A DNA stretch of 64,000 nucleotides from Lysobacteraceae bacterium (GTDB lineage Bacteria; Bdellovibrionota; UBA1018; JAGTJX01), in assembly GCA_023657465.1 (NCBI GenBank), contig JAGTJX010000001.1, positions 710,358-774,357 of the forward strand. The letters are read 5' to 3'. Shown here piece after piece: positions 4,398 through 27,830 of the stretch. The notes beneath the pieces are model-generated. The model saw nothing but the letters and a program-made list of their open reading frames with translations, was not told the origin of the DNA and searched no databases. The translations under genes were made by a program, and so were the position numbers. How positions within the stretch are numbered: position 1 is the first letter of the stretch; every line of letters starts with the position of its first letter.

Positions 4398-4404
4398 GAT
4401 AATT

Positions 4405-4577
4405 GACCCTAGGGTTAGGTAACTCATTACTTGGACCCGAGGCAGTCGTTGAACAAGGGAGCTGTTCCTGTGTATGTGGTGCGCATGCCCGGTTTTTCCG
4501 GGAAGCCTAAAGCTACCATACGGCGCCCACCTGAGGATTACTCGGGCGTTCCAATTGACAAGCCTAACCCTAGAGTC
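4405..4577 (+). ncRNA. ssrS: 6S RNA
   Basis: 6S RNA mimics an open promoter and sequesters sigma-70 RNA polymerase in stationary phase. The region folds into one long rod. CTAGGGTTAGG (4409-4419) pairs with 4563-4573 and extends by GAC/GTC to 4405/4577. CCCGAG (4436-4441) pairs with CTCGGG (4541-4546), and TTGGA pairs with TCCAA. The apical arm has the family hallmark GCATGC, then CCCGG-TTTTT-CCGGG (4488-4502), then GAAGCCTAAA, very like the E. coli 6S hairpin and its GAAGCCTTAAAA. Length (173) and the promoter position agree. A 6S covariance-model search would settle it. It fills most of the 339-base gap between genes. Confidence 0.88.
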
Positions 4578-4644
4578 AAATCTTTCAAGAACTTGACATG
4601 GTGACTCAGATCGCAATAGGCTTGAGTTCTCAGGGGGCTTTCAG

Positions 4645-24471: not shown

Positions 24472-25653
24472 TTATGCCATAGATTCCCATGGAAAAACTT
24501 CCACGCCATCTAGAGTCTGATGACGACTGACAGGGGCGAGATGAATGAGCTGAGCTTTTCCCACCTTCTTTTTGAAAGCATGTAGGATCTGAAAATCTCT
24601 CAGATCAATTTTTTCTGAGTCAGAAACTTGAATGGCAATGGGAGGGTGTTTTCCTGAAGAGTCCTCTATGATGAGGTCGATGATATTCCCACGAGAGCTA
24701 CGATAATAGCAGAGCTTCGAGTGTTCGGCATGGTAGCTGCGTTGAGACCACTGTTCGAGGAGCAAGCATTGTTGAACAGCGGATCTTAGGCTTTGGCCTA
24801 GGAGTTTAGAAATTCCCAAATCAATTAAAAAGTACCTTGGTTTTCCAGATCCAGCAGAATGAGGAAGGATTTTTTTGATCACAAACAATAACTCAAGGGC
24901 CTTGAGGTGAGTCGCGATTTTTCTAGAGGCTACCCGTAGTTTTTTTGCTAATGACGCGACATCTGGTTCTTCGAGTGTAGGCAGTGCTCGAATCATATCT
25001 GTCGCTAAGTCAGAGTCTAGTTTTAGGGTTTTGATTTGAAGTAAATCCCGATCAGACACGAGCTTAAGCCATGAAGTGAGTAATTGCTCTCTTTCCTGAG
25101 GATCTCTTACAGAGAAAATACCAGGTAATCCACCGTGAGATAAGTGTTTTAAGAGCTGGTTACGAGTGACTCTGGGCTTGCGATTGAGTAGCGACGGGGT
25201 GTGAGACGGATTGGGTTCAAGTGATAAAGCTTCCGCTAGATTGAGTGGAAATAGCTCCACTCTCGAAAGTCTTCCGGTGAGTGATTCCATGATTTTGAGT
25301 TCATGTGAAAACTCTGTAGATCCGAGAAGGAGGTACTGCCCTGGTTTGGGGTTCAGATCTACTCGGAGTTTGATCTCGTCGAATAAATCGCCCGCTTTTT
25401 GAGCTTCATCAATGATAACGGGAGAAGAGTCTTCAAACTGTGAAAGGAATGTGGATGGGTTTCGATTGGCTAAAGATCGATCTTGGGTAGAGTCTAGAGT
25501 GATGTACTGAGAGTTTTTGATTTGAGGTTGAATGATTTCACGAGCGATGAAGCTCTTCCCAGTCTGTCTGGCTCCCTGAAGGCTCACTATGCGGGAGAAT
25601 TTTAGTTTTTTGATGATCAACGAGAGTGCGTGTCGTTTTCTGTCGTGTGGCAT
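24472..25653 (-). CDS. AAA_14/DUF4143 ATPase
   Basis: The N-terminal P-loop domain has Walker A GARQTGKS (27-34) and Walker B PVIIDEAQK (78-86), followed by LTGRLSRVELFPLNLAEAL, the typical start of this family's second half. A winged-helix-like stretch (about 230-265) and a DUF4143-type PD-(D/E)XK region close the 393-residue protein. In the latter, YYRSSRGNIIDLI is present, but where an ExK is expected the sequence reads AIQVSDS, so nuclease activity is doubtful. The family's role is not settled. A 21-bp perfect inverted repeat begins six bases before the ATG. Confidence 0.88.
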   Translation of the reverse strand: MPHDRKRHALSLIIKKLKFSRIVSLQGARQTGKSFIAREIIQPQIKNSQYITLDSTQDRSLANRNPSTFLSQFEDSSPVIIDEAQKAGDLFDEIKLRVDLNPKPGQYLLLGSTEFSHELKIMESLTGRLSRVELFPLNLAEALSLEPNPSHTPSLLNRKPRVTRNQLLKHLSHGGLPGIFSVRDPQEREQLLTSWLKLVSDRDLLQIKTLKLDSDLATDMIRALPTLEEPDVASLAKKLRVASRKIATHLKALELLFVIKKILPHSAGSGKPRYFLIDLGISKLLGQSLRSAVQQCLLLEQWSQRSYHAEHSKLCYYRSSRGNIIDLIIEDSSGKHPPIAIQVSDSEKIDLRDFQILHAFKKKVGKAQLIHLAPVSRHQTLDGVEVFPWESMA

Positions 25654-25659
25654 GGACTC

Positions 25660-25713
25660 ATTTTAACCCGTTGAATTATTGCAATCAACGATAATAATTC
25701 AACGGGTTAAAAT
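25660..25713. repeat. 21-bp perfect inverted repeat abutting the DUF4143 gene start
   Basis: Bases 25660-25680 are the exact reverse complement of 25693-25713, with a 12-base loop between. In RNA from the minus strand this would be a strong hairpin ending just before the ATG at 25653 and covering any ribosome binding site. As DNA it could be an operator. The same arm sequence was not found at the other end of the gene. Confidence 0.9.
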
Positions 25714-25785
25714 AGACGGCTATTTGATCAATATTCCAGACCAAAGCTGTTCTAAGAACTGCTGATAGGGGTTGTTGAAGTAGTG

Positions 25786-26325
25786 TTAAGGATTAATAAT
25801 TTTATCGAACTTAAAATCGATAGCTTCAACTGGTCCTGAGAGCAGAACAGGTATGATTCTTACTCTCTGGTTTGGGTAGAATGCGAATGAACTTGTTAGG
25901 TAAGGCTTCACACTCTCCCAAGTACTACCATCTGCTAGAGCATACTTCGGCGTGACTTTGAGTGAGCTATGATTGTCGGTCCTGCCAGGCTCGTAGGTTA
26001 ATCTATATTTCCAATCACGGTCCTTGGCTTCGTAGAATTGTGTGGTGAACACCAACTCATCATCCAGATGAATCGTGAGGGGGGTAGAGCTGGTTTGATA
26101 ATCAAGCTCTGAGGATCTGTCCATCATTTTGTATTTTTTGATTTTGACTGGGACATCCAACAGCGTCGTGGTTGTAGCGGAATGAACTCCTGAGTCAGAA
26201 TAAGTGAAAATTTGGTGGACATCTAATTTCTCGTTTATGAATTTTACTTCGCTTCTTCGGCGCTTGAAAAATGCTTGGCTTAAGTCAATCGTAGTTTCGA
26301 ATTCTCGACTGAAAATGGGGAATAC
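25786..26325 (-). pseudogene. in-frame continuation of the upstream secreted-protein gene, or an ORF starting at TTG
   Basis: Immediately after the TAA that ends the 26326-27012 gene, the same frame stays open for about 179 codons. No ATG or GTG exists until deep inside; the first plausible start is a TTG at 26160, which gives 124 residues and has no clear ribosome binding site. The translated part before it (for example VHQIFTYSDSGVHSATTT) reads like genuine protein. A nonsense mutation, programmed readthrough or a separate TTG-started gene are all possible. The C-terminal part is strand-rich, with no recognised domain. Confidence 0.5.
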
Positions 26326-27012
26326 TTATGAAGCAAAAGGCTTTCCATTTTCGTATGAGTAACCACTTTTTGGTGAAAACAGCTGAGCGATTGCGTAACG
26401 CATTGACGAGTCAATCTCGACATAACTCGGATGAGAGTTGGAGAAGAAAAATGCAACGGCACTACGAACGAATCTAGAATCTGTGACATTCCAATTTTGT
26501 CTGGCAATTTCATAAAGAGCTTCGTGGAATTTGAGAGCAGCGCGATCAGTATTGGTAAATGCAGAACTATTGTAAATTTCTTCATCAATTTTTAGCACAG
26601 TTTTCCTAAGTTCATAGTCGTAACCATGAACAGCAATTTGTTCAAAGTCGCATTCGTTCTTGGCTCCGTAGGTAGGGAGGGAGTCGGCTGTTGGCATAAG
26701 GGGTTTGCCATTTGTTGTTGTCGTTCTGCCTTCATCAATAGCGATCGCTTTTGAAATCTCGTTTCTGCCATATGGAAAAAACTCTCCTAATATCGAAATC
26801 GCTCGATCGAGTTGTTCTTTAACGCTTCTCTCGTTATCTCGAATGATCATTTTGTGGTCGGGTTCCCAGAGGTCTAGGAGCTGAGCAAAGTAGATCTCGC
26901 CCGTGCTTGGCTTCCTGCACACATATGCCATTCCGCCGTTACCGACACCACCAGCTTGGACTTGGGGAATGAGTGAGAGTAGGACTCCGATCATTGCTAC
27001 TAATGTTTTCAT
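26326..27012 (-). CDS. secreted protein of the GNGG-type, partner of a TIGR02147 regulator
   Basis: The 228-residue protein has a signal peptide (cleavage near Val-Gln-Ala, about residue 20), then GGVGNGGMAYVCRK and AQLLDLWEP, and near the end LKFHEALYEIARQ with DSRFVRSAV. I associate this layout with a family of secreted proteins common in Bdellovibrionota, of unknown role. Its start overlaps the upstream regulator by four bases, so regulator and secreted protein are made together. The reading frame continues beyond its TAA stop, so the present protein may be a truncated form of one about 408 residues long. Confidence 0.7.
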   Translation of the reverse strand: MKTLVAMIGVLLSLIPQVQAGGVGNGGMAYVCRKPSTGEIYFAQLLDLWEPDHKMIIRDNERSVKEQLDRAISILGEFFPYGRNEISKAIAIDEGRTTTTNGKPLMPTADSLPTYGAKNECDFEQIAVHGYDYELRKTVLKIDEEIYNSSAFTNTDRAALKFHEALYEIARQNWNVTDSRFVRSAVAFFFSNSHPSYVEIDSSMRYAIAQLFSPKSGYSYENGKPFAS

Positions 27013-27830
27013 TCTGTTTCTCCTTCTGAGAGGGGTTGAGTGAGTTGGAAGACTTGATTCGATAAATTGAGAACGGTGTCTGCCCCAGATACATTGCCGA
27101 ATTCTGTGACGAGACTCGTGATGAACTTCCTTACGCGCGAACGAATCTCAGGCAGGTCTTTGGACCTTGCAGGAATGACGTAGGTATAGAAATCTCTGTC
27201 TGAGACAGATTGAGTGTAAAGCGCTTGGATGGCCTTAGTGAGAGTCTGATCATGGAATGATTTGATTGCAGTGCTAGGGACTCCATCAGGAGAGAGAACT
27301 GCATCGGGTATGGGAATCCATTTTGAGTCTTTGCGCTCGATGAGTTCTAAGCGTTCAAGTCTCTCAAGTGCATCAGTCACTTGAATCGGTGTGATGCCGA
27401 GTTCGGAAGCGATCCATGAAGAGGTGTGAACAGTACGATTGAGTTTGAGTAGCTCTAGAATGGCCATCGGGTACCAGTCCGAGATCGTTCGGAATGCATC
27501 TAGTGTCAGAGTGAGTGAGTTTGAGTTTTTTTCGAGAGCTGCAAGTGCTCGGCGTTTTGCGATTTGTCGTTTGATTGGGTTTCTTGCGTGCTCGCTTTCA
27601 ACGAGGTCGCAGAAAAATTCTGTTTCGGTGTCGTCCCAACCAAGTTTTTGGGCCCACTGTTCTGCTGCTGAACGGGAGAGCCCTTTCTTGCCATTGAGAA
27701 TATCGCTCAGACGCGCTGGCTCAATTTTTAAATCTCTCGCAAACGCACGAAGAGAGTAGCGCGAATTCTTCGCTGTTCTCGTCATCATCTCGGATCGTAA
27801 TCGATCTCTGTAGTTTGTGTACGTTTGCAT
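27009..27830 (-). CDS. TIGR02147-type transcriptional regulator
   Basis: The 273-residue protein begins with an atypical XRE-like helix-turn-helix (YSLRAFARDLKIEPARLSDI, about 25-44, then LNGKKGLS). A conserved middle follows with FRTISDWYPMAILELLKL and a second winged-helix-like segment (SSWIASELGITPIQVTDALE). That two-part layout matches the TIGR02147/DUF4423 family seen in Fibrobacter and Bdellovibrio. Members often sit beside secreted-protein genes, as here, where it overlaps the next gene by four bases. A dyad at 27888-27929 in the divergent promoter region could be its operator. Confidence 0.82.
   Translation of the reverse strand: MQTYTNYRDRLRSEMMTRTAKNSRYSLRAFARDLKIEPARLSDILNGKKGLSRSAAEQWAQKLGWDDTETEFFCDLVESEHARNPIKRQIAKRRALAALEKNSNSLTLTLDAFRTISDWYPMAILELLKLNRTVHTSSWIASELGITPIQVTDALERLERLELIERKDSKWIPIPDAVLSPDGVPSTAIKSFHDQTLTKAIQALYTQSVSDRDFYTYVIPARSKDLPEIRSRVRKFITSLVTEFGNVSGADTVLNLSNQVFQLTQPLSEGETE

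Follow-up and report, generated by a model that had tools for sequence, protein, structure and literature searches.

A perfect inverted repeat threaded through a predicted leaderless promoter as the probable autoregulatory operator of an AAA_14/DUF4143 ATPase gene

Background

A gene for an ATPase of the AAA_14/DUF4143 type is preceded by a long perfect inverted repeat, which ends only a few nucleotides before the start codon. What is this repeat for, and which molecule reads it? The gene lies in a stretch of 64 kb, called the window below, and belongs to the family PDC-S01. According to a 2026 survey, PDC-S01 is a PADLOC phage defence candidate made of an ATPase plus a PD-(D/E)XK fold, and it ranks fourth in frequency among the defence candidates of prokaryotes (PMC12988326). 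The survey terms such candidates unvalidated and gives their prevalence and evolution; in its consulted sections nothing was found on the operators, promoters or regulation of PDC-S01. Neither was anything found on the regulation of DUF4143, COG1373, AAA_14 or PABY2304 in the open-access literature searched, whose coverage is partial. From the sequences of the locus and its relatives, the best explanation appears to be that a leaderless gene is negatively autoregulated by its own product via a private operator, a reading to which we give a probability of about 0.7.

Results

The repeat and its surroundings

The two arms of the repeat, ATTTTAACCCGTTGAATTATT and AATAATTCAACGGGTTAAAAT, are 21 bp long and reverse complements of each other without any mismatch (Table 1). 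They enclose a spacer of 12 nt, and a gap of 6 nt leads from the proximal arm to the ATG (25653-25651) of the ATPase gene, which agrees with the geometry described in a first-pass annotation. With spacers of up to 50 nt allowed, the window has no longer perfect inverted repeat, the runner-up being 13 bp.

Table 1. Features of the ATPase locus in window coordinates
Feature	Position	Strand	Basis or remark
Proximal arm (right arm in the gene's reading direction)	25660-25680	-	Exact reverse complement of 25693-25713
Distal arm (left arm in the gene's reading direction)	25693-25713	-	Exact reverse complement of 25660-25680
12-nt spacer, contains the -35 hexamer	25681-25692	-	
Predicted -35, TTGATT, within the spacer	25683-25688	-	Consensus scan; same register, often TTGACN, in relatives
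Predicted -10, TAAAAT, outer end of the proximal arm, 17 bp from the -35 and 6 nt before the ATG	25660-25665	-	Consensus scan
Predicted transcription start, on the A of the ATG (leaderless mRNA)	25653	-	Placed by the -10 position
AAA_14/DUF4143 ATPase gene, 393 aa, PADLOC PDC-S01 family	24472-25653	-	Pfam AAA_14 E 5.3e-24; PDLC04790 E 3.3e-59
Winged helix-turn-helix, residues 214-276, candidate operator reader	24826-25014	-	AlphaFold2: helices 214-226, 232-239, 243-255; strands 259-264, 273-276

Is the repeat a copy of something that occurs elsewhere? Since it sits in intergenic space, it might be the end of a repetitive or mobile element (REP, MITE or insertion sequence) or an intrinsic terminator. 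However, a search of the 2.83-Mb genome with the whole element finds a single match, its own site. The 16-mer core of the arm, searched at fewer than 2 mismatches, finds its own two arms and nothing else, and with up to 3 mismatches its 22 matches equal those of the reversed-pattern control (22). Multiple copies, the sign of a REP or MITE element, are therefore lacking, the gene's far end has no second copy either, and the earlier opinion that a transposon end is unlikely holds. No U-tract follows the stem on either strand and the repeat is absent from the list of a terminator-like scan, so an intrinsic terminator was rejected too. The dyads of relatives, described below, keep the same position relative to the gene while their arms are unrelated in sequence, which also speaks against both readings, and we give them hardly any credence. 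An Rfam scan found no RNA family at the repeat.

Other features of the window can be briefly noted. A 6S RNA is located at 4403-4580 on the plus strand (Rfam, 64.6 bits). Upstream of the ATPase gene, a gene for an exported protein (26326-27012, minus) has an in-frame TAA at 26326, after which the frame stays open to 25786; a stop, from nonsense mutation or sequencing error, may have broken up a longer gene spanning 25786-27012. Further upstream is a TIGR02147/DUF4423 helix-turn-helix gene (27009-27830, minus).

The ATPase

The ORF scores 85.1 bits with AAA_14 (Pfam PF13173, cut-off 27), and it falls just at the border of DUF4143 (PF13635), with 28.0 bits against a curated cut-off of 28.1. Like each of the 24 aligned relatives, it matches PDC-S01 models, in its case PDLC04790. 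Walker A (GARQTGKS) and DEAQK are conserved in the 24 relatives, with G27, R29, Q30, G32, K33, D82 and E83 invariant. The AlphaFold2 model (mean pLDDT 93.4) is composed of an AAA+ core, a winged helix at residues 214-276 and a C-terminal alpha/beta domain, and the product is predicted to carry a DNA-binding-type domain in this winged helix. The PD-(D/E)XK label of the C-terminal domain comes from the PDC-S01 literature (PMC12988326). The pattern D...(E/Q)xK of an active nuclease of this fold was not found in the query, which reads IIDLIIE...IQVS, and in the C-terminal part of the alignment of the 24 relatives none of the catalytic residues is invariant. The model resembles known folds only weakly, PABY2304, MalT, plant NLRs and Avs proteins being among the matches; the family profile gave no sequence match against PDB chains.

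The nearest named relatives, at about 40-48% identity, are from metagenome genomes of Bdellovibrionales, Bacteriovoracaceae and Oligoflexia. Four genomes of the same order (G039, G032, G048 and G045) have 55-84 candidates of the family each at first look, of which up to 34 were scored, suggesting that the family is strongly expanded there. A scan of viral contigs gave four relatives, all distant.

Dyads upstream of homologues

Is the dyad peculiar to this gene? A set of 129 non-redundant homologues was picked by similarity to the query, sharing the conserved N-terminal motif M-x-H-x-R-x-R; start codons were set by a motif-aware rule, and several of the metagenome genomes are fragmented. The first-pass annotation had proposed a self-regulatory element, and as a conditional reading the proposal not only survives but extends to the family: a dyad with a score of at least 12 stands before 86 of the 129 homologues (67%), while the rate is 2.2% for 357 neighbouring genes and 0.2% for shuffled upstream regions. 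About one third of the homologues have no clear dyad. The left and right arms of the same gene match with a median of 14, while the median between arms of different genes is 5, and the arm sequences differ strongly from gene to gene, paralogues within one genome included. Judged from these upstream sequences, the dyad is a feature of the family, which occupies the same place before the genes that have it but has a sequence of its own in each.

The symmetry is kept while the sequence changes. A check of relatives for compensatory changes between the arms, as had been proposed, found them in abundance: 35 pairs of nearest relatives have 85 compensatory double changes against 27 non-complementary ones, besides 98 single changes. 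The complementary share of double changes is thus three quarters, where about one third would be expected if the two sides changed independently. In one near-identical pair from different genomes (L106 and L107, protein distance 0.02), the operators differ at two positions without compensation.

How far does the feature reach? A wider and more distant set, which takes in several Bdellovibrionota-type subfamily loci, has 21 of 55 members with a dyad score of at least 12. None of eight plasmid-borne relatives (about 23-29% identity) scores at least 12, while four of them, two nearly identical, have dyads scoring 10-11 that adjoin the ATG. The relative in Thermus thermophilus HB27 has a short repeat only. 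Among distant relatives, those in Nitrospira, Sulfitobacter, Thiothrix and Dinoroseobacter (L240, L270, L271 and L273) have a CCTTGCAAAT-type dyad right at the ATG. The relative on plasmid pEMTOL02 of Emticicia oligotrophica (L272:1444-2610) has araA on one side and an L-ribulose-5-phosphate 4-epimerase gene on the other, and looks as though it had been inserted into a group of arabinose genes.

A promoter threaded through the dyad

Promoters were called by a simple consensus scan, and the start sites are consensus predictions. In the query, both predicted hexamers fall within the repeat (Table 1). In 80 of the 129 homologues (62%) the -10 of the best promoter-like match ends 5-11 nt ahead of the start codon, a position found in only 38 of 324 neighbours (12%; Fisher p 2e-26), and SD-like cores precede 18% of the homologues versus 32% of the neighbours. 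From the closeness of the -10 to the start codon and the fewer SD-like cores, leaderless mRNAs are predicted. Among 58 dyad-bearing homologues with such a -10, 56 have their predicted start downstream of the entire repeat.

The arrangement was also read by eye in other groups. A second subfamily has its -35 within the right arm, and its -10 in the stretch from the dyad to the ATG. Relatives from Lachnospiraceae (about 25% identity) have TTGACA followed by a -10 in the left arm, and a ribosome binding site after the dyad. In several other phyla a short dyad sits between TTGCAA and a TAATAT-like hexamer, which are spaced by 17 bp and stop 6 nt short of the ATG. The register varies among groups, yet the dyad overlaps promoter-like sequence each time; some homologues have a dyad that touches the ATG, or a promoter that is not clear (L015, L018). 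A predicted promoter of the sigma-70 type appears woven into the dyad, and such an overlap of dyad and core promoter is what characterizes an autoregulatory operator. That this promoter is used and that transcription begins at the ATG are what we infer from the scan.

DNA operator or RNA hairpin?

Two uses of the repeat had been proposed at first, an operator bound as DNA and an mRNA hairpin that hides the ribosome binding site. Such a hairpin, placed at the start of the transcript to mask that site or to sense a condition, would fit a perfect 21-bp stem near the ATG, and the compensatory changes among relatives would be expected of it as well. It would need both arms in the transcript, together with tolerance of G-U pairs. 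However, the proximal arm has the predicted -10 as its outer end, which means that the mRNA would start at the ATG, downstream of both arms, and the stem would be absent from it; in Lachnospiraceae, where the -10 read by eye is in the left arm, the mRNA would again not contain both arms. Pairing in RNA is expected to leave an excess of G.U over A.C mismatches. The mismatches in the dyads are 44 G.U and 48 A.C (p 0.75), whereas 72 terminator hairpins from the same loci have 52 G.U and 20 A.C (p 2e-4). Moreover, pairs next to the loop are less well kept than the outer pairs.

The predicted promoter within the repeat and the lack of a G-U preference make an mRNA hairpin quite improbable and support a DNA operator. 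Of the two proposed uses it is the operator that gains, while the hairpin loses, because a leaderless mRNA is predicted, which has no ribosome binding site to hide. Complementarity in the homologue dyads is highest at 10-22 bp from the dyad centre and low at the centre itself, a profile that, as a sequence pattern, is that of two putative protein half-sites. The compensatory change among relatives is best read as a reflection of dyad symmetry in DNA and not of pairing in RNA.

Could the DNA instead be extruded as a cruciform and recognized by shape? This would explain why the arms drift while symmetry is kept, since symmetry is more conserved than sequence, and RuvB, a branch-migration motor, is among the fold matches of the ATPase model. 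But spacers of up to 30 bp and poor central pairing disfavour extrusion, and the half-site sequence is common to close proteins. We consider a cruciform very improbable and return to an operator read by its sequence.

Which protein binds?

There is a further question, whether the ATPase itself or another DNA-binding protein encoded elsewhere would occupy the operator. All the operator evidence fits another binder equally well, and the winged helix of an AAA+ protein need not bind DNA specifically. On the other hand, among the neighbours in 67 loci no gene is recurrent except antisense shadow ORFs and, in 6, a common type of response regulator. Self-binding is the simplest reading because the arms differ for each gene, even between paralogues of the same genome, so that an external regulator would require a dedicated partner for each.

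Operators diverge along with their proteins (Mantel permutations), a correlation inflated by shared ancestry, which was kept in. With ancestry likewise kept in, no part of the protein correlates better with the operator than the winged helix, both over the whole set and within subfamily 2 (best windows at residues 217-270). For the query's own subfamily, a partial Mantel scan, again with shared ancestry kept in, puts the protein windows 331-372 and 139-180 on top and the winged helix third, which favours another binder in that its best windows are outside the winged helix. Pairs of paralogues from the same genome gave no signal, their operators being about as dissimilar as those of other pairs at equal protein distance. 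The correlation appears to be supporting, not decisive. Taken with the gene-by-gene arms and the lack of a recurrent neighbour, a different binder is rather unlikely, and the ATPase is the more probable candidate.

Discussion

How might the switch work? In the proposed scenario, the operator would consist of two mirror-image half-sites, each of about 13 bp, with centres about 32 bp or three helical turns apart, woven into the sigma-70-type promoter that would drive a leaderless ATPase mRNA. The half-sites would be read by a dimer via its winged helix, the ATPase being the likeliest protein to form it. The bound dimer would block RNA polymerase, and the gene would limit its own expression in this way; the ATP state or a trigger could release the dimer. 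With an arm sequence of its own, each homologue would have a private switch. Repression is the effect that this geometry suggests, and it may be that the protein bound to the dyad activates rather than represses.

Autoregulation of this kind is known from AbiEi, which represses its own toxin-antitoxin promoter at inverted repeats (PMC7319586). As far as the consulted part of that report goes, the likeness lies in the inverted repeats at the promoter and in a DNA-binding repressor from the same locus, here a putative one. Unlike AbiEi-type promoters, the present case involves a single gene without a partner, the putative repressor is an AAA+ ATPase, and the mRNA is predicted to be leaderless. 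WYL-domain regulators of defence islands (PMC9122601) and RptR, a dedicated regulator of defence genes (PMC12255303), likewise exert transcriptional control over defence genes at palindromic or inverted-repeat sites; in the parts consulted, they are separate genes that control others, whereas at the present locus the operator stands before the candidate effector itself, without a linked regulator gene. With PDC-S01, the ATPase shares the ATPase core and the C-terminal alpha/beta domain of the model. STAND-type ATPases (PABY2304 structure 2qen, MalT, NLR, Avs) are among the best fold matches of the model, but TM-scores are low (0.31-0.44 on the query) and sensor repeats are absent, and membership is not claimed. 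What seems to be new is the autoregulatory-type dyad across the family, the leaderless promoter threaded through it and the divergence of operators gene by gene, of which no prior description was found in the partial open-access literature.

Then what could these operators mean for the family? One idea, which is speculative and unlikely, is that these are a large set of self-repressing, sequence-specific ATPases whose recognition sequence diversifies with each gene, and that the same specificity recognizes foreign DNA or senses infection, for example by titration or displacement from the operator, which would then be switch and sensor at once. More generally, the upstream sequences suggest sequence-specific DNA binding by the ATPase, and separate wiring of paralogues that share a genome. 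An operator in its own promoter would be the first concrete handle on PDC-S01, since each protein would come with a defined piece of DNA to bind, promoter activity would report on its state, and the question of what releases it from the operator could be approached.
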